From an uncultured Hyphomicrobiales bacterium (GTDB taxonomy: Bacteria > Pseudomonadota > Alphaproteobacteria > Rhizobiales > TMED25), in NCBI GenBank assembly GCA_905181735.1, contig CAJIYR010000003.1:1-64000 (forward strand): DNA of 64,000 bases, read 5' to 3'. Below are positions 38,401 to 50,965 of this stretch, piece after piece. The position numbers and the translations under genes are program-made. The notes under the pieces are model-generated. The model was not told the DNA's origin and did no database searches. It saw only the letters and a list, made by a program, of their open reading frames with translations. Position 1 is the first letter of the stretch, and each line of letters opens with the position of its first letter.

Positions 38401-39037
38401 TAATTCTGGAATTTTAAGACCTATAACAATTTTAATACCAGAAAAAAGTATACTATCTCCAGATAAAAATGCTGCAGTATCAGCTGGAAATGTAGAAACA
38501 AGCCAGGTTATAGCGAACTGCCTTCTTGGAGCCTTGGGAATTAGTGCTGGGTCACAAGGAACTATGAACAATATTGTTTTTGGTGATGAGAATTCCCACT
38601 ATTACGAAACAATATGTGGCGGTTCCGGGGCTGGTAAATATTTTAACGGCACCAATGCAGTTCAATCAAATATGACGAATTCAAAATTAACAGATCCTGA
38701 GATTATAGAAAATCAATATCCTGTAGAAATATTTAATATTTATATAAATCGCAATACTGGCGGTGATGGACTTAAGAAAGGCGGAGATGGTATTGTAAAA
38801 ACTTTCCTATTCCAAAGACCAATGGAATGCTCAATTATATCAAACAATCGAATTACTTCTCCTTTTGGTTTACATGGAGGTAAAAATGGAACTATCGGCC
38901 AAAATTATCTAATCAGAGGAAATAAAAAGTATAAGTTAAGGAGCTGCGAGCAGTTAAAAATACAAAAAGGTGATAAAATTGAAATTACAACACCTTCGGG
39001 TGGAGGGTATGGTTTGATCAAGAATAACAAACTATAG
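35429..39037 (+). CDS. 5-oxoprolinase-type protein, hydantoinase A and B domains fused in one polypeptide
   Basis: 1202 aa; DKGGTFTD N-terminus (HyuA-like), [13 protein letters not shown], then HyuB half ([54 protein letters not shown]). Confidence 0.9.
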
Positions 39038-42000
39038 TTTGAAATCTAGAATTGATTTTAACCACTTATCCGCATCATCTTCAGACCAGCCCTTTCTCCT
39101 TGAATAATCGGTCGCTTGATCACGACCAATTTTACCAACACCAAAATATCTAGAATCTGGATGACCAAAGTACAAGCCAGAAATTGATGATGCAGGAAGC
39201 ATAGCACAAGATTCCGTTAACGATATTCCAATATTTTCTTCTGCATTTAAAAGTTTAAATATTGTTATTTTCTCAGTATGATCTGGCTGAGCTGGGTATC
39301 CTGGCGCAGGTCTAATTCCAATATAACCCTCTTTAATCAATTCCTCCTTACTTAAATTTTCATTTGGACTGTAACCCCATAATTCTTTCCTTACATGTTC
39401 GTGCAAGAATTCAGCACCAGCTTCAGCTATTCTATCTGTAATAGATTTAAACAATATGATATTATAATCATCATTATCCCTCTCAAAATTAAGCATTGGA
39501 TTGTTATTCCCTAAATCAGCAGTAACTGCAAAAGCGCCCAAATAATCAGTTTTCCCATATTTCTTAGGTTTAATGAAATCTGATAACGACAAATTATAAC
39601 GACCAGAATCTCTAGCCATCTGCTGTCTTATGGTATGAAAAGTAGCGAGCTCTAAATTTTGGTCATCATTTGAATACAACCTTATGTCATCTCCAACAGA
39701 TTGTGCGGACCAAAATCCAACACACGCTCTAAAATCAATCCAATTATTAACAATAGCTTCATTAATTAAATTTTTTGCATCATTAAATAACTGCGTTGCA
39801 GATTCTCCGTAATCCTTATTAGACAATATTTCAGGGTAAGAACCTCTTAATTCCCAAGTCTGAAAGAATGGCGTCCAGTCTATATATTTTACGAGATCAT
39901 TTAAATTAATGTCATCTATTTTTTTTACACCCAAGAAACTAGGTTTTTTAGGATTATAAGAATCCCAATCAATTTCAAGCTTATTATCTCTTGCAGTATT
40001 TATTGAAATACGGTTATTGGCATTTGTTCTGTTTTTATAAGATTCTATAATTTTAGAATATTCAACCCTAGTTTTGTTAATTATCTCATCTTTTCTATCC
40101 TTTGACATAAGATCAGAAACTACACCAACAGCTCTACTTGCATCTGTAACATATAAGACTTGCCCCTTATTATAATTGGGAGATATCTTAACTGCCGTAT
40201 GGACTTTGCTTGTGGTCGCTCCACCAATTAATACCGGGATATTTATATCCCTTTTATTCAATTCAGCTGCAACTGTACACATTTCATCTAGACTTGGAGT
40301 GATGAGTCCCGACAAACCAATAATATCAACATTCTCACTTATAGCAGTTTCTATAATTTTATTAGTTGGGACCATAACCCCAAGGTCGATAATCTCATAG
40401 TTATTGCATTGCAAAACTACAGCAACAATATTTTTTCCAATATCGTGAACATCACCTTTTACTGTAGCGAGAAGAATTTTTCCCGAATATGAAATCTTAT
40501 TTTTGTCTTCAGTTTCTTCATCATTCTCCATATACGGCAATAAATAGCTAACAGCCTGTTTCATAACACGAGCACTCTTGACAACTTGAGGCAGAAACAT
40601 TTTCCCTGAACCAAATAAATCACCTACACGATTCATTCCATCCATTAAAGGGCCTTCGATTACATCCAAAGCTAACTTTGAAGAAAGTCTTGACTCCTCA
40701 GTATCCTGTTCAATAAACTCATTAATCCCTTTCACAAGAGAGTGAGCCAATCTTTTGTTTACTTCTAGATTTCTCCACTCTAGATCCGCAGCTCTAACTT
40801 CACTTCTGCCAATATTAAATTTTTCAGCTTCATTTAATAATGCTTCCGTGGCATCTGGTGATTTATTCAATATCACATCTTCACACAACAATCTAAGATC
40901 GCGATCAATATCATCGTAAATTGTAAGCTGTCCTGCATTAACTATACCCATATCCATTCCAGCTTTTATTGCGTGATATAAAAAAACTGAATGCATTGAT
41001 TCCCTTACAATTTGATTACCACGAAATGAAAATGATAAGTTCGATACCCCTCCAGAGATAGAAGTTAGTGGCATTTCTTCTTTTATTAATTTGCAAGAAT
41101 TTATATAATCAATTCCGTAATTATTATGCTCCTCCATACCCGTCGCAACAGCAAAAATATTAGGATCAAAGATAATATCCTCTGGCAAAACTCCTACTGT
41201 CTCAGTTAAAATTTTATAAGCTCGTTTGCAAATATCAATTTTTCTTTTCTCTGTATCCGCTTGACCTAATTCATCAAATGCCATCACAACCATTGCAGCG
41301 CCATATAATTTTATTTTTCTTGCCACTTCAATGAAGTTTTTCTCACCCTCCTTTAAGCTTATTGAATTAACAATTGATTTTCCTTGAACGCATTTTAATC
41401 CAGCCTCAATAACAGTCCATTTAGAGCTATCTATCATTATAGGTACTCTGGCAATGTCAGGTTCGGAAGAAATTAAGTTAAGAAATTTCTGCATAGCATA
41501 TTCAGAGTCCAATAAACCTTCGTCCATATTTACATCAATAATTTGCGCCCCATTATCAACTTGATCTTTAGCTACTTGCAAAGCTTCCTCATATTGATTA
41601 TTTAAAATTAATTTTTTAAATTTAGCAGACCCTGTAATATTCGTACGTTCGCCAATATTTATAAAATTACTATCTATACTCTTATTGAAAGGTTCAAGAC
41701 CAGAAAGCGATAGAGTTGGCTGATTGGGCCTAGGTTTGCGCGGTGCTATGTTAGCTACAGCATCAGCAATATGATGAATATGATCAGGAGAAGTTCCACA
41801 ACAACCTCCAACAATATTAACTAACCCTTCTAATGCAAATTCCTTAAGAATTGAAGCTGTTTGACAAGGCTTTTCATCGTATTCACCGAATTCATTAGGC
41901 AAACCTGCATTAGGATACGCTGATATGAGTGTGTCAGAAACTTTTGATAAGTCAAATATATGTTGTTTCATTTCTGCAGCACCTAGAGCACAATTTAATC

Positions 42001-42736
42001 CAACAGAGAATGGTGTTGAATGTTTTACTGAATGCCAAAATGCTTCAGTAGTCTGGCCGGATAAAGTTCGACCAGATAGATCTGTTATGGTACCAGAAAC
42101 CATAATAGGCATTGTTTTATTAAGTTTTATAAATACACTTTGGATTGCGTATATTGCTGCTTTAGCGTTTAAAGTATCAAATATAGTCTCAATTAATATT
42201 ATATCAACTCCACCATCAATCAACCCATTTGCTGCCTCAGAATAAGATTTTACGAGATCATCAAATTTTACAGCCCTATAACTTGGGTCCTCAACGTCCG
42301 GGGACATTGATGCCGTCTTATTAGTTGGTCCGATTGCACCAGCAATATAAACTCTCTTATTGTTTTTCTTATAGAATTCCAATGCAACTTCTTTGGCAAT
42401 TTTTGCTGAATTTTTATTTAACTCATAAGCAATATTTTGCAAACCGTAATCTGCTTGAGCTATTGAAGTTGAAGAGAAGGTATTTGTTTCAATTATATCA
42501 ACGCCGGCATCACAATAGGATCTGTGTATTTTTTTAACTAAATCAGGTTGTGTTATCGAGAGAAGATCATTGTTACCTTTCAAATCTTGCGGGTATTCAC
42601 GAAATCTCTCTCCCCTAAAATCTGACTCACTTAATTTAAATTTCTGTATTTCAGTCCCAGCTGCACCATCGATAATCAAAATTTTATTTTGTGCTAAATT
42701 TTTAAGTTCGTTATTACAGTTATTATATTTTATCAT
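39032..42736 (-). CDS. metH: Cobalamin-dependent methionine synthase
   Basis: 1234 aa; Hcy-binding ([12 protein letters not shown]), pterin-binding ([14 protein letters not shown]), cobalamin ([10 protein letters not shown]), AdoMet activation ([15 protein letters not shown]). Confidence 0.97.
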
Positions 42737-42753
42737 TCTATTGGCCTAATATA

Positions 42754-43659
42754 TTACGAATTCTGATTGAGAATATCATCCCAAATACTTGCGATAAGCT
42801 GAATACGGTTTAAAGAATATAGGTGAAAATTATTTACACCTTTATTAATTAAATCTGAGATTTGCTTGGTAATAATTTTTTTACATAAATTATAATTATT
42901 CATATCGGTCTCACTGCTATTAAGAAACTCATCGGCAATATTTTTTGGAATTGACGCACCACATTTATCAGAGAACCGCTTAATCTGGTTAAAATTTACG
43001 ATAGGTACAATTCCGGGAATAATGGGAATATTAATATTACGTTTTTTAAGTATTTTTACATAATCATAGTATAATTCATTATCGAAAAAAAATTGTGTTA
43101 CTATACTATGAGCTCCAGCTGTAACCTTTGATTCAAGTGTGTCTATATCTCTTTTTTTATCTAATGACTCCGGATGTTTTTCTGGGTATCCTGCTACATA
43201 AATATCAAAATCATTTACTTTTTTTATAGCCGTAACCAAATCAGCAGTACTATGAAACCCGTTCTTATAAGGCCTATAAGGAACATCCAAACCCTCAGGG
43301 GGATCTCCTCTTAAAGCTACAATTTTTTTAATACCTATTTTACTATACAGTTCTACTAAATGAATAACATCATCGATTGATGAATTAACACATGTTAGAT
43401 GAGCTGCAACAGCAATATCAGTCTCTATATGCAAACGTTTTACAAGATCTAACGTTGAATTTTGAGTTGAACCACCCGCACCATATGTTACTGAAATAAA
43501 ATCAGGCTTAGAATTCATAGACTTTAAATTTGCAATTAATCCATTGACTTCATTGACCGTCTTAGGTGGAAATATCTCTAACGAATACTTCAATCTTTTA
43601 TTGTTATTTTTTAGTTTAATCCCCATACCAAGTATCCATTTATCTAATTTTTTTTCCAA
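42754..43659 (-). CDS. metF: Methylenetetrahydrofolate reductase
   Basis: 301 aa; SLEIFPPKT, FISVTYGAGGST, ALRGDPP; start uncertain (an internal Met at 43626 is possible). Confidence 0.93.
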   Translation of the reverse strand: MEKKLDKWILGMGIKLKNNNKRLKYSLEIFPPKTVNEVNGLIANLKSMNSKPDFISVTYGAGGSTQNSTLDLVKRLHIETDIAVAAHLTCVNSSIDDVIHLVELYSKIGIKKIVALRGDPPEGLDVPYRPYKNGFHSTADLVTAIKKVNDFDIYVAGYPEKHPESLDKKRDIDTLESKVTAGAHSIVTQFFFDNELYYDYVKILKKRNINIPIIPGIVPIVNFNQIKRFSDKCGASIPKNIADEFLNSSETDMNNYNLCKKIITKQISDLINKGVNNFHLYSLNRIQLIASIWDDILNQNS

Positions 43660-44623
43660 GCCATAAAGTAACAGTCAGATTTTCATTAACAGAATCTTCG
43701 TTAATAGAATCTCTTTGCATTTTCAGCTCCCTAAAACCCAAAACTTCTATATTATTTTTTTCAAATAATTCATTCATCTGATCCGATGAAAATCCAAGTC
43801 TTCTATGGGAAAGCTTGCTCCTTAATAGCTCAATTGAATGTGAGGAAAAATCAACAATAAAAACCTCTCCATTGATTTTTAACAACCTAGACGCTTCTTT
43901 TATTACATCAGATGGATTATCAAAATAATGCAACACTTGATGAATTATTATTAAATCAACGCTATTACTGCTGAAAAGTGTTTTTGTAATATCGGAATAC
44001 CTAATCTCACATTTTTTTAACTCTAAAGCATCAATTCTTGATCTTGCTATAGATAACATATGGTGATTATTATCAATACCGACTGCCTCATTATAGTAGC
44101 CATCTAATATTTCAAGCATTCTTCCTGTGCCAGTTCCAAAATCAATTATTTTTTTATAATGATTTCTATCGCGCAATATATCTATTATATTTTTTTCTAT
44201 ATGATCTGAATTAACGTGTAATTTGCTTATCTGATCCCAGTCACGAGCAATACGATTAAAATAATCAATGGACTCTATCTGTCTTTGATCTTTTAATTCT
44301 TTTAATCTTAATAAATCTAATTGTATCTTTTCATCGCTAGTAAAAACTTTATTATCAATTAAATGAATTAATTTAATAAAATCTGTATTGTGGTTAAGTT
44401 TACAATACACCCAATTTCCTTCTCTTATTCGTCTAATCAAACCAGAGTCATCAAGGAGCTTAAGATGTCTAGAAATTCTTGGCTGACTTTGACCCAAAAT
44501 AACAGCTATATCTTGTACGTTTAATTCGCTATGCGCTAGCAAACTCATAATCCTAAGCCTTGTTTCCTCTCCCAAAGCTTTCATGGCTTGGATGGTATTT
44601 TCAAGTCGCATTTCTCTATCCAT
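43640..44623 (-). CDS. ArsR-family regulator fused to a class I SAM-dependent methyltransferase domain (SahR-like)
   Basis: N-terminal wHTH (MKALGEETRLRIMSLLAHSELNVQDIAVILGQSQPRISRHLKLL) plus MT domain (IIDFGTGTGRMLEIL). The track ORF begins at 44749, but homology starts at MDREMRLENT (ATG at 44623). Upstream of metF-metH. Confidence 0.88.
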   Translation of the reverse strand: MDREMRLENTIQAMKALGEETRLRIMSLLAHSELNVQDIAVILGQSQPRISRHLKLLDDSGLIRRIREGNWVYCKLNHNTDFIKLIHLIDNKVFTSDEKIQLDLLRLKELKDQRQIESIDYFNRIARDWDQISKLHVNSDHIEKNIIDILRDRNHYKKIIDFGTGTGRMLEILDGYYNEAVGIDNNHHMLSIARSRIDALELKKCEIRYSDITKTLFSSNSVDLIIIHQVLHYFDNPSDVIKEASRLLKINGEVFIVDFSSHSIELLRSKLSHRRLGFSSDQMNELFEKNNIEVLGFRELKMQRDSINEDSVNENLTVTLWLGKKIR

Positions 44624-44854
44624 AGTTATCAATTTAAAACAATCATAAAATCTATATAAAGATATACTTATATCCTTATAATAGTTATTGTAAAGATAAA
44701 TATACCTAATTAATAGATATTTACAAAGAGAGTAACTGTAAATTACCATTCAAATAAACTGTATAATTTGTTCATAAATTCATATTTATTTAATACAATT
44801 GGAATTATATATGCTATAAAGAATTACTTTTAAAAGTATTAAGTGTGAGATTTA

Positions 44855-47477: not shown

Positions 47478-48656
47478 TTATAATGTGACCTTCTTATCTT
47501 TTAGCTCTTGATAAACAAATCCTAATTCCGTTAAAATTTCATACGAATCCTGTCCTAGAAGTGGGGCACTATTTCTAATATCAGGACCATCTTTATTCAT
47601 GAGCACAGGGTTTCTAATAGCTTTTATTTTACCAAGAACATTGTGATCACTTTCAACCACTAGCCCCCTATCTACACTATGTTCACTATTAATTGCCTGT
47701 TCGTAGTTTCTGACATAACCACAAGGAACACCTTCTTTCATTAAAGCTTCTTCCAAATCACTTGCGTTCCATTTGGCTATACCTTCAGAGACAATTGGTA
47801 CAAGAATAATTTCATTCTCTTTACGGCTAGAGTAGGAAGAAAATGCTCTATTACTAATATGTTCTGCACATGATAATACTGTCATTAAACGTTGAAAATG
47901 AAGGTCATTTGGAGCACCTATAGCAATAAATTTTTTATCTTTAGTTTCAAACAATTGATAAGGAGCACTTGCACGGTGAGAATGCCCCATTTGCTCTGGT
48001 ATATTACCTGTAGACAGATATTCTGAAGTTTCCCAAACAGCTGAAGCAATTGAAGCTTCAACAAGAGACACATCTGAGAATCTTCCTTCACCGTGTTTTT
48101 CTTTTCCAACTATAGATGTCAATGTGGCGTAAGTTGCAAACAGAGCTCCAAACATATCAGCGGTTTGAATTCCTGGTCTTACAGGCATTTGTCCTTTTTC
48201 TCCCATTACAGATAATGTGCCAGCAAGGGCTTCTATAATTAAATTAACACCACCTCTATTCTTATGTGGACCCGTCTGACCAAAACCAGATACCGCTGTA
48301 TATACAATGTCAGGTTTAATCTCTTTAATTTTATCGTACCCCAACCCCAACCGATCCATCGCGCCGGGTCGATTATTTTCTAGGAAAACATCACTATTGC
48401 CAACTAACTTAAGAACAACCTCTTTACCTAAATCTGTTTTTAGATCAAGTGCTAAACTCTTTTTATTTCTATTGAGATTAATAAAAGCAGCGCTCTCTCC
48501 GTCTATTATAGGTGGTATAGCTCTAGACATATCACCACTAAGTGATTCTATCTTGATAACTTCAGCTCCCATATCCGCAAGTAACATACCACAAAAAGGT
48601 CCTGCAATAAAATTTGCAAATTCCAAGACTTTGATACCCTCTAGTGGCTTTGTCAT
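47478..48656 (-). CDS. CaiB/BaiF (type III) CoA-transferase family protein
   Basis: 392 aa; PLEGIKVLEFANFIAGPFCGMLLADMGAEVIKIE, FINLNRNKKSLALDLK, VSGFGQTGPHKNRGG. Confidence 0.93.
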   Translation of the reverse strand: MTKPLEGIKVLEFANFIAGPFCGMLLADMGAEVIKIESLSGDMSRAIPPIIDGESAAFINLNRNKKSLALDLKTDLGKEVVLKLVGNSDVFLENNRPGAMDRLGLGYDKIKEIKPDIVYTAVSGFGQTGPHKNRGGVNLIIEALAGTLSVMGEKGQMPVRPGIQTADMFGALFATYATLTSIVGKEKHGEGRFSDVSLVEASIASAVWETSEYLSTGNIPEQMGHSHRASAPYQLFETKDKKFIAIGAPNDLHFQRLMTVLSCAEHISNRAFSSYSSRKENEIILVPIVSEGIAKWNASDLEEALMKEGVPCGYVRNYEQAINSEHSVDRGLVVESDHNVLGKIKAIRNPVLMNKDGPDIRNSAPLLGQDSYEILTELGFVYQELKDKKVTL

Positions 48657-48766: not shown

Positions 48767-49558
48767 TTATCCCTCTATTTCATCTCCAATAAGCTCTTCT
48801 GGAGCGATTAAAACCTTCATGTTATCAGTCACAAAAGTAACATCAATTCTCATACCAGCGTCTATAGCTCTCACTAAATCTGTTCCTTCTTCAAATTCAC
48901 GATCTGAAGGTGGAAGTGCAACCAGACGATCTAAATAACCTCTTCTCCAAGCATGTATTGGAACCAATTTATAAATATCGTCACTATCTAACTTTTTTAT
49001 ATCTCGCCTCACATCGATTAACGTGCCGACCTTGCTTCCTTCCAGAGGATAGACAATCCTATCTGAATTCCAGTCTACAATAGCTTTAACAACATCTAAA
49101 TCATCTTTATCACTTTCTAATAAAGGAGCTACCATTGTGGCGACACCAACATCAGAACTACAAAGAGCGTACATTAGCGCTTGCATGTGATAAGGTTTTA
49201 ATTCTGGCATATCATCAGGCACAGCAATAACTACATCATGCGTATAATACCTATCGAATCTATTAACAGTTGCGGCTATCCTTTCGGCTCCAGAATTTGA
49301 TCTATAATTATGGTCTTTTCCAAATTCAGACATATCTGTTTGAACAGTATAGGCACCATGACCTTTCATCTCAGAGGCTTGATCATCAGATATACTGTCA
49401 ACAATAACGCTTCCAATACCAGAATCATTAACCTGCTTAAAAGCATTAACGATAGAAGATTTTTTTTGTACGCCAGGATTGCTTATACCAAGTTCAGAAG
49501 CAACTATTATTAGCGGATTAAATATCATAGAACGATTTTTTTCAAATGCTGGAAACAC
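48767..49558 (-). CDS. KdsB-like (CMP-KDO synthetase fold) protein lacking canonical active-site motifs
   Basis: 263 aa; SGAERIAATVNRFDRYYTHDVVIAVPDDMPELKPYHMQALMYAL and HAWRRGYLDRLVALPPSDREFEEGTDLVRAIDAGMRIDVTFV correspond to KdsB, but the N-terminal PAR..S.RLPGK nucleotide-binding motif is absent. Confidence 0.7.
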   Translation of the reverse strand: MFPAFEKNRSMIFNPLIIVASELGISNPGVQKKSSIVNAFKQVNDSGIGSVIVDSISDDQASEMKGHGAYTVQTDMSEFGKDHNYRSNSGAERIAATVNRFDRYYTHDVVIAVPDDMPELKPYHMQALMYALCSSDVGVATMVAPLLESDKDDLDVVKAIVDWNSDRIVYPLEGSKVGTLIDVRRDIKKLDSDDIYKLVPIHAWRRGYLDRLVALPPSDREFEEGTDLVRAIDAGMRIDVTFVTDNMKVLIAPEELIGDEIEG

Positions 49559-49577: not shown

Positions 49578-49623
49578 TTAAGGACATGAGAGCATAGGAT
49601 ATACTCTCATGTCCTTAAATATT
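49578..49623. repeat. Intercistronic perfect inverted repeat (15-bp stem, 11-nt loop)
   Basis: TTAAGGACATGAGAG (49578-49592) / CTCTCATGTCCTTAA (49604-49618), between the M24 stop and the KdsB-like start. Confidence 0.9.
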
Positions 49624-50965
49624 ATTTATTTGGATACCCAAATATCGTTTTATGATGGAATTCACCTGGTCTGTAATCAGCCACAGCTTCTTCCATGTGT
49701 TCCATTTTAGTAAAGACCGATGGACCATCTTTAGTAACAAGAACATTCTCTTCAAGTCTACATGTTTGAGGTAAACCTGCATGACCCGCAAATGTTTCAA
49801 TAGCGAAATACATATTTTCCTTTATTTCTGCAGGATATTTCATTGAATAAGCACGACTCATCCACATTCCTTCATACAATGTAAGGCCAATTGAATGCGC
49901 AAATTGTTGCAATGTAACAGTTCCATATTTATCATCGTCATATACAGGGAATTTTGATACAACATCAGCAGACGTTTTTCCTGGTCGTAAATTTTCAAGT
50001 GCCGCGTACATTGAATCGTATGTTTCGCGATATAAATCAATTTCTTGTTGGCTTAATTTTGCAGCGCATTTGAAAGTACGTACAAAATCAATAAAGTAAC
50101 CGCCTGGTCCGACAGCATTGATATCGATAATCAAAAGATCACCCTGTTGAATTAATTTATCAGTTGCCCATCGTCTATAAGGACTTGTGTTGCCACCAGA
50201 TGCTACAATAATGTCATAAATAATTTCACAACCCCTTGAAAGCATGAACTCATGCACCTTAGCTTCAATTTGTCTTTCTGTTATACCTGGTTTTAGCCAA
50301 TCGTTTTTTACATGCCACATAGCAGCATCACCGATTGAAGCAGACATTTTAAGTTGCTCTATTTCGTCTACCGTCTTAACCACACGAGCTCTAGACATTG
50401 CAGGCCAACCGTTTACTACATTTACTCCGGCTTTCTCCATTGCGTGTAATCCTGGCATATCCAAACCATCTATGCCTATTTTTTCTTTTTCTACGCCATT
50501 CTCTTTTAGAACTTCTAGAACTGAGTTTACCATTTTATCTGCCATTTCACCCACAGCACCTTCAGCCCACTGCCATGTCATAGCTGGACGTACGCGATCT
50601 TTCAACCATGGTAAATCTAACATAGCATTATGCATATCAGATCCAGCTGTTTCGAAAAGAACAGGTTCGCCACCTCTTGGTAAAACCGCATATCTAATAT
50701 TAATATTATATTTCCAGTTACCTTGATAAGAACCCGTAATATATCTAATATTTGCTCCTGCAAATAAAACTAACGCTCCAAGATCATCGGCTTCCATCTC
50801 TTGGCGAGCACGCTCAAGACGTTGACGTCTTAATCTTTCATGATCAACTCTATATTGCCAATCTGCACCGTTTTGACTGTACATACGACGTGGATTTGTG
50901 TGATGTTCTTGTTGAATAAAACCTGTGTCCAAGCCCCATCCTTGTGAAGGATCCATTGGTCCCAT
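49622..50965 (-). CDS. M24 (pita-bread fold) family protein, DddP/creatinase-like clade
   Basis: 447 aa; LLIIDINAVGPGGYFIDFVRTF, FAHSIGLTLYEG, YFAIETFAG, CRLEENVLVTKDG provide the D/D/H/E/E metal-ligand pattern. Confidence 0.85.
   Translation of the reverse strand: MGPMDPSQGWGLDTGFIQQEHHTNPRRMYSQNGADWQYRVDHERLRRQRLERARQEMEADDLGALVLFAGANIRYITGSYQGNWKYNINIRYAVLPRGGEPVLFETAGSDMHNAMLDLPWLKDRVRPAMTWQWAEGAVGEMADKMVNSVLEVLKENGVEKEKIGIDGLDMPGLHAMEKAGVNVVNGWPAMSRARVVKTVDEIEQLKMSASIGDAAMWHVKNDWLKPGITERQIEAKVHEFMLSRGCEIIYDIIVASGGNTSPYRRWATDKLIQQGDLLIIDINAVGPGGYFIDFVRTFKCAAKLSQQEIDLYRETYDSMYAALENLRPGKTSADVVSKFPVYDDDKYGTVTLQQFAHSIGLTLYEGMWMSRAYSMKYPAEIKENMYFAIETFAGHAGLPQTCRLEENVLVTKDGPSVFTKMEHMEEAVADYRPGEFHHKTIFGYPNK

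Follow-up and report, generated by a model that had tools for sequence, protein, structure and literature searches.

The 64,000-nucleotide window (the whole stretch of DNA analysed here, from an uncultured Hyphomicrobiales bacterium) contains a gene for a protein descended from KdsB (CMP-KDO synthetase, which activates a sugar of lipopolysaccharide). According to the alignment, the protein has lost the loop that grips CTP and one of the two aspartates that serve as Mg ligands, and new residues (E22, P114-D115 and I251) are fixed at the lost sites. The gene strictly co-occurs with, and is adjacent to, a gene of one subfamily of M24 metalloenzymes, is under strong purifying selection, and is accompanied by a separate canonical kdsB. 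The biochemical role that we infer for it is that of a KdsB-fold protein which no longer transfers nucleotides and has been retained as a partner dedicated to the M24 metalloenzyme of the gene just upstream, a reading to which we assign a probability of about one half.

Homology and active site of the KdsB-like protein

The KdsB-like ORF at positions 48767-49558 (minus strand) comprises 263 codons with a GTG start and zero internal stops, as expected from an earlier note that had placed an intact KdsB-like frame there. The start codon is preceded by AAGGA, and the start context is conserved among orthologues. The similarity to KdsB is far beyond chance, with the NCBIfam model NF003948 (KdsB) matching at E=2.3e-23, and every KdsB model stays below its threshold (82.7 bits for NF003948, less than one third of the cut-off of 281, and 47.6 bits for TIGR00466 with a cut-off of 155.2). 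The only recognisable relatives of the 263 aa protein are CMP-KDO synthetases, which account for all significant PDB matches by sequence or profile (KdsB chains at 7e-8); no better-fitting nucleotidyltransferase family was found in NCBIfam or the PDB, and a search of Pfam gave zero matches. Alignment of the family profile with a canonical-KdsB profile using hhalign covered residues 12-263 with a probability of 99.6% (E=6e-25), which supports the U-shaped two-domain fold of KdsB, an enzyme that dimerises through its C-terminal domain; an AlphaFold model based on the 15-sequence alignment was unreliable (pLDDT 37). A search of the open-access literature did not find a paper on a comparable KdsB-like paralogue.

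Active-site positions were compared between the 14 full-length members of the KdsB-like family and 33 canonical KdsBs, using the numbering of Aquifex KdsB. In the Aquifex KdsB-CTP-Mg structure, the base and ribose are contacted by P8, R10, L70, P71, R76 and G94, the triphosphate is held by R10, T14, R15 and K19, and D95 and D219 are the ligands of Mg-A (PMC3149649). The CTP loop P8-x-R10...T14-R15...K19 is missing from the KdsB-like family, with P8 replaced by Ala and R10, present in 33/33 canonical sequences, replaced by an invariant Glu (14/14; E22, codon at 49493-49495, minus strand), and with the positions of T14 and R15 variable and that of K19 variable or absent. Residues 26-36 (49451-49483, minus strand) form a variable linker in place of Thr14-Arg15-Lys19, in which 0/11 positions are invariant among the full-length orthologues and the length differs by 6 residues. 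The strand before the linker (residues 5-25) is invariant at 19 of 21 positions (90%); the corresponding share is 71–79% in the SGAER and PDDMPEL regions. Further downstream, the canonical Q-G-D is replaced by P114-D115-D116 (49211-49219, minus strand), which puts an Asp at the position of G94 and keeps the Mg ligand Asp95 as D116 (ligand role from PMC3149649). The second ligand, Asp219, is conserved in 31/33 KdsBs and is Ile in 13/14 and Met in 1/14 of the family members (I251, codon at 48806-48808, minus strand). The Arg76 that contacts cytosine and ribose is retained as the invariant R93 of the S-G-x-D/E-R motif. The two remaining contact positions are uninformative, as P71 varies even in canonical KdsBs, and at L70 almost every canonical KdsB, like every member of the KdsB-like family, has His.

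These comparisons agree with the earlier note on the replacement of the N-terminal KdsB motif (Arg10, Thr14, Arg15 and Lys19 are gone) and on the change in the C-terminal motif, where the second Mg ligand has given way to I251. Its wider statement that the nucleotide-binding signature had been lost holds for the CTP loop and for Asp219, but not for D116 and R93: in the described change from NVQGDEP to AVPDDMP the N, Q and G are lost and the metal-binding Asp stays, and the kept Arg had been passed over. As aligned, the CTP/Mg site is lost partly, not wholly, because one Asp and one Arg remain, and we infer that the net charge of the triphosphate site has shifted from positive to negative.

The partial retention of the site bears on whether the protein might still be an active nucleotidyltransferase with a rebuilt site, using another NTP or sugar-acid and employing D116, D115, E22 and R93 in catalysis. 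The invariance of the D95 and R76 equivalents would be compatible with this, as would the invariant new acidic residues E22 and D115 at what are cleft positions in the alignment, and the retention of K158 and of the KDO-domain arginines R184, R206 and R230. We nevertheless consider such an enzyme rather unlikely, since every residue that binds the triphosphate in KdsB is either missing or unconserved, the replacement loop varies even in length, the acidic shift would be unfavourable to NTP binding, and the Mg ligand Asp219 is Ile or Met.

Distribution, selection and origin

Orthologues of the KdsB-like protein (63–93% identical) were found in 15 genomes: 13 belong to OCS116, a marine clade, and the remaining two are MAGs from elsewhere in the Hyphomicrobiales. 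No others were detected at E<1e-25 in a class-level sample of 387 genomes, and distant relatives may have escaped the scan of the whole collection, which relied on two peptide patterns. The gene is present in the genome of the window and in 12/13 sampled relatives of its family, with the sole exception being a 75% complete genome (G008) from which the M24 gene is missing too. An orthologue cut by a contig end was found in a MAG from a different family in the same order (G044, locus L046), and the nearest relatives of a further MAG with the gene (G798, locus L045) overlap those of the genome of the window.

The reading frame is open in 15/15 loci, and the protein retains 63% identity to a different, GC-rich lineage. 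Using the Nei-Gojobori method, the dN/dS of the KdsB-like gene was 0.019–0.053, and 0.019–0.050 in close pairs, compared to 0.005–0.030 for the M24 gene and 0.09–0.15 for canonical kdsB in the better-resolved pairs; all values with dS above 1 are rough. The KdsB-like gene is thus under strong purifying selection, with a dN/dS below that of canonical kdsB. A pseudogenised kdsB copy, hitch-hiking beside the M24 gene as a decaying or selfish leftover, would be in line with the disappearance of the KdsB signature motifs, but has next to no probability in view of the open frames, the dN/dS of 0.02–0.05, the identity to the GC-rich lineage and the fixation of non-ancestral residues.

A canonical kdsB is present in the same genome (G000:C6, L001), which contains the IPARMAATRLPGKPL, NLQGD and GVDT motifs and passes the NF003948 cut-off. 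Among the 12 other OCS116 genomes with the KdsB-like gene, a full-length canonical kdsB match was found in 11, with weak matches only in G007 (77% complete); the match was partial in G044 and full in G798. A plasmid origin of the KdsB-like gene was also considered, and plasmids gave weak canonical KdsB matches only. The possibility that the KdsB-like protein is a divergent but working CMP-KDO synthetase of the clade draws on the fact that KdsB models alone match it, but is very improbable, as the same genomes hold a canonical kdsB with all motifs, and catalytic residues have been lost from the KdsB-like protein. Even jointly, decay and a working KdsB have little claim to the explanation. The preference expressed in the earlier note for a repurposed paralogue over a decaying gene is therefore supported by the presence of a canonical kdsB, by the selection on the gene, by its recurring adjacency to the M24 gene, and by orthologues carrying the same substitutions, which show that it is no lone pseudogene.

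In a maximum-likelihood tree, which carries a long-branch warning, the KdsB-like family and the canonical KdsBs were separated with full support by an internal branch of ~4 changes per site. NF003948 is the best model for both groups alike, which fits a possible origin of the family from that KdsB type, without proving it. The word paralogue is apt if taken to mean a second clade with the KdsB fold that is sister to the first; duplication within the lineage and transfer are both possible origins, and the great length of the branch prevents a choice between them. We also observed, in the sister genome G001, a second, very divergent cytidylyltransferase with an intact CTP loop (G001:C38, L072), possibly for another ulosonic acid.

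The M24 partner and its genomic neighbourhood

The KdsB-like gene was located directly downstream of the M24 gene at 15/15 loci, always on the same strand and with a gap of 60–90 bp, so that the adjacency described for the window recurs throughout. The neighbours in the window are also as previously described, with the M24 gene at 49622-50965 and a family III CoA-transferase gene at 47478-48656, both on the minus strand. The CoA-transferase gene was present in all OCS116 loci long enough to show it and absent beside the pair in L045, and is an OCS116-only neighbour outside the core pair. The recurring order in OCS116 is rpoD, M24, KdsB-like and CoA-transferase, with one genus having an extra stretch before the CoA-transferase gene; an ORF with the appearance of an LVIVD-repeat or beta-propeller-like protein lies between the KdsB-like and CoA-transferase genes in one OCS116 genus (L038:8831-10111). 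The surroundings in L045 differ, as only the pair itself is common, plus a nearby metH-metF-arsR block. Such a metH-metF-ArsR/methyltransferase block is located near the pair in the window (39032-44749), L033, L034 and L045 (8707-14342), and is replaced by a homocysteine-methyltransferase-like ORF in L035 (12839-13765) and L038, with the pair kept. A link of the pair with methionine or methyl transfer, suggested by the block in both the window and L045, was considered and set aside, as most genus-2 OCS116 loci show no metH-metF block around the pair.

An intercistronic hairpin separates the M24 and KdsB-like genes in the window (49578-49618, minus strand; 19 bp stem, -28.3 kcal/mol, z -8.3), and hairpins of differing sequence were found at the same place in the 7 other loci folded, where the GC-rich hairpin of L045 was no stronger than its shuffles. 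The hairpin might act in termination, in attenuation or in stabilising the mRNA, and suggests that the M24 and KdsB-like proteins may be made in unequal amounts, which calls for caution in assuming a simple stoichiometric (1:1) complex.

The 447 aa M24 (pita-bread) metallohydrolase-like protein belongs to its family, with a score of 106.5 bits against a cut-off of 23 for Pfam PF00557, and with all five common metal-ligand positions filled by D280, D292, H356, E389 and E405, which align with D295, D307, H371, E406 and E421 of DddP. This subfamily was found in 14/398 genomes of the order, each of which contains the KdsB-like gene. The M24 protein is 86–96% identical among genomes with the pair, and 89–90% even in the genome of another family, and is thus more conserved than the neighbouring RpoD (71–73% in the other OCS116 genus, for the greater part of the protein) and DnaG (37–42%). 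Synonymous sites are saturated between distant members, so this similarity is due to constraint and not to recent transfer. The closest distant relative is a 59% identical M24 protein encoded on a Haloarcula plasmid (CP050017.1:47290-48636, L052), where an SDR gene is its direct neighbour; the cluster contains SDRs together with hisD-like and xanthine-dehydrogenase-family genes, and lacks a KdsB-like gene. This indicates that an M24 enzyme of this type can work without the partner, and counts against the partner reading. The Haloarcula cluster is also a candidate for finding the M24 substrate.

Several further weak matches to the DddP profile were detected in the 1.39 Mb OCS116 genome, including G000:C2 (L101), C8 (L102) and C13 (L103). 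At the places read, M24 ORFs stand next to dehydrogenases, SDRs, a thiamine-dependent enzyme and a cyclase-like protein, and judged from the translations they apparently sit in catabolic clusters, which makes a catabolic role of the M24 partner plausible. Such an expansion of M24 creatinase/DddP-like proteins is unusual for a streamlined genome of this size.

Proposed role and comparison with known systems

The KdsB-like protein most probably serves a new function, because its CTP-gripping loop has been lost, selection on it is stronger than on the working copy, and its adjacency to the M24 gene is constant. As the triphosphate-binding Arg and Lys residues are now acidic or variable and the remaining cleft is largely invariant, the cleft would bind a ligand other than a nucleotide; candidates are a small metabolite that is cationic or bound to a metal, and the M24 protein itself. 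In a catabolic reaction headed by the M24 enzyme, the KdsB-like protein could then be a subunit for substrate binding, assembly or regulation, or alternatively a second-step enzyme which does not use CTP. The retention of D116 and R93 counts against the partner reading, as it makes some nucleotide or metal binding possible.

A third use of the altered site would be as a new metal- or cation-binding protein or enzyme, in which E22-D115-D116 binds a divalent metal or a quaternary-amine or sulfonium substrate, and which may carry out a non-nucleotidyl reaction on the M24 product. The charge reversal of the old CTP site, the invariance of the acidic residues, and the use of small zwitterions by M24 relatives of this sequence type (DMSP for DddP, and ectoine or creatine for others) would favour such a protein, but it is doubtful, as there is no solved relative with such a site and the positions come from alignment alone. 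The cleft geometry in all these proposals is that of the profile alignment, and the partner, rebuilt-nucleotidyltransferase and metal- or cation-binding readings overlap in part. Tentatively, the charge reversal of the triphosphate site (R to E, and G to D beside the kept Asp) might have given rise to a metal- or cation-binding subunit or enzyme, which together with an unusually constrained M24 metallohydrolase would make up an obligate two-component catabolic system in marine OCS116 bacteria.

Returning to the partner reading, a retired enzyme copy turned partner of an unrelated enzyme is rarely caught with so much evidence, in this case the same substitutions shared by all full-length orthologues, a strict pairing, and a constraint stronger than that on the working copy. 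Genomes of OCS116, the marine clade that has the pair, are very small, and few accessory genes survive in them. Since relatives of the M24 protein use abundant marine zwitterions such as DMSP, its substrate, once identified, could name an as yet unassigned step by which dissolved organic matter is turned over. The KdsB-like gene would probably be called KdsB by automatic annotation and so be hidden.

When compared with known systems, the protein resembles KdsB (NF003948, TIGR00466; PDB 1vh3, 3k8d and 8ees) in its whole-length homology and in the retention of the SGxER, VK and (P)DD-P motifs and several C-terminal arginines. It differs from KdsB in the absence of the CTP loop, the changes of Arg10 to Glu, QG to PD and Asp219 to Ile or Met, the replacement of His-Ile-Gly-x-Tyr by Leu-Val-Pro-Ile-His, a 9-residue insertion before SGxER, and in having an M24 gene as its genomic partner. 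The GalF/GalU pair of E. coli (PMC4643126) offers a parallel, in that a sugar nucleotidyltransferase is present twice, once as a working enzyme and once, at another place in the genome, as a copy whose catalysis is reduced or unclear. However, GalF is highly similar to GalU, whereas the KdsB-like protein shares about 20–30% identity with KdsB, and its ties are to an unrelated enzyme. The M24 partner is similar to DddP, which acts on the small zwitterion DMSP (PMC4108388), and to M24 creatinase/prolidase-like enzymes in its M24 fold and five MetAP-type metal ligands. DddP is its best NCBIfam model, but a function as DddP DMSP lyase was rejected, as the score of 122 bits is far under the cut-off of 600, and the DddP residues Asp297, Tyr366 and Asp377, with roles described in PMC4108388, are replaced by Asn282, Leu351 and Leu362 in an alignment to 4s01.
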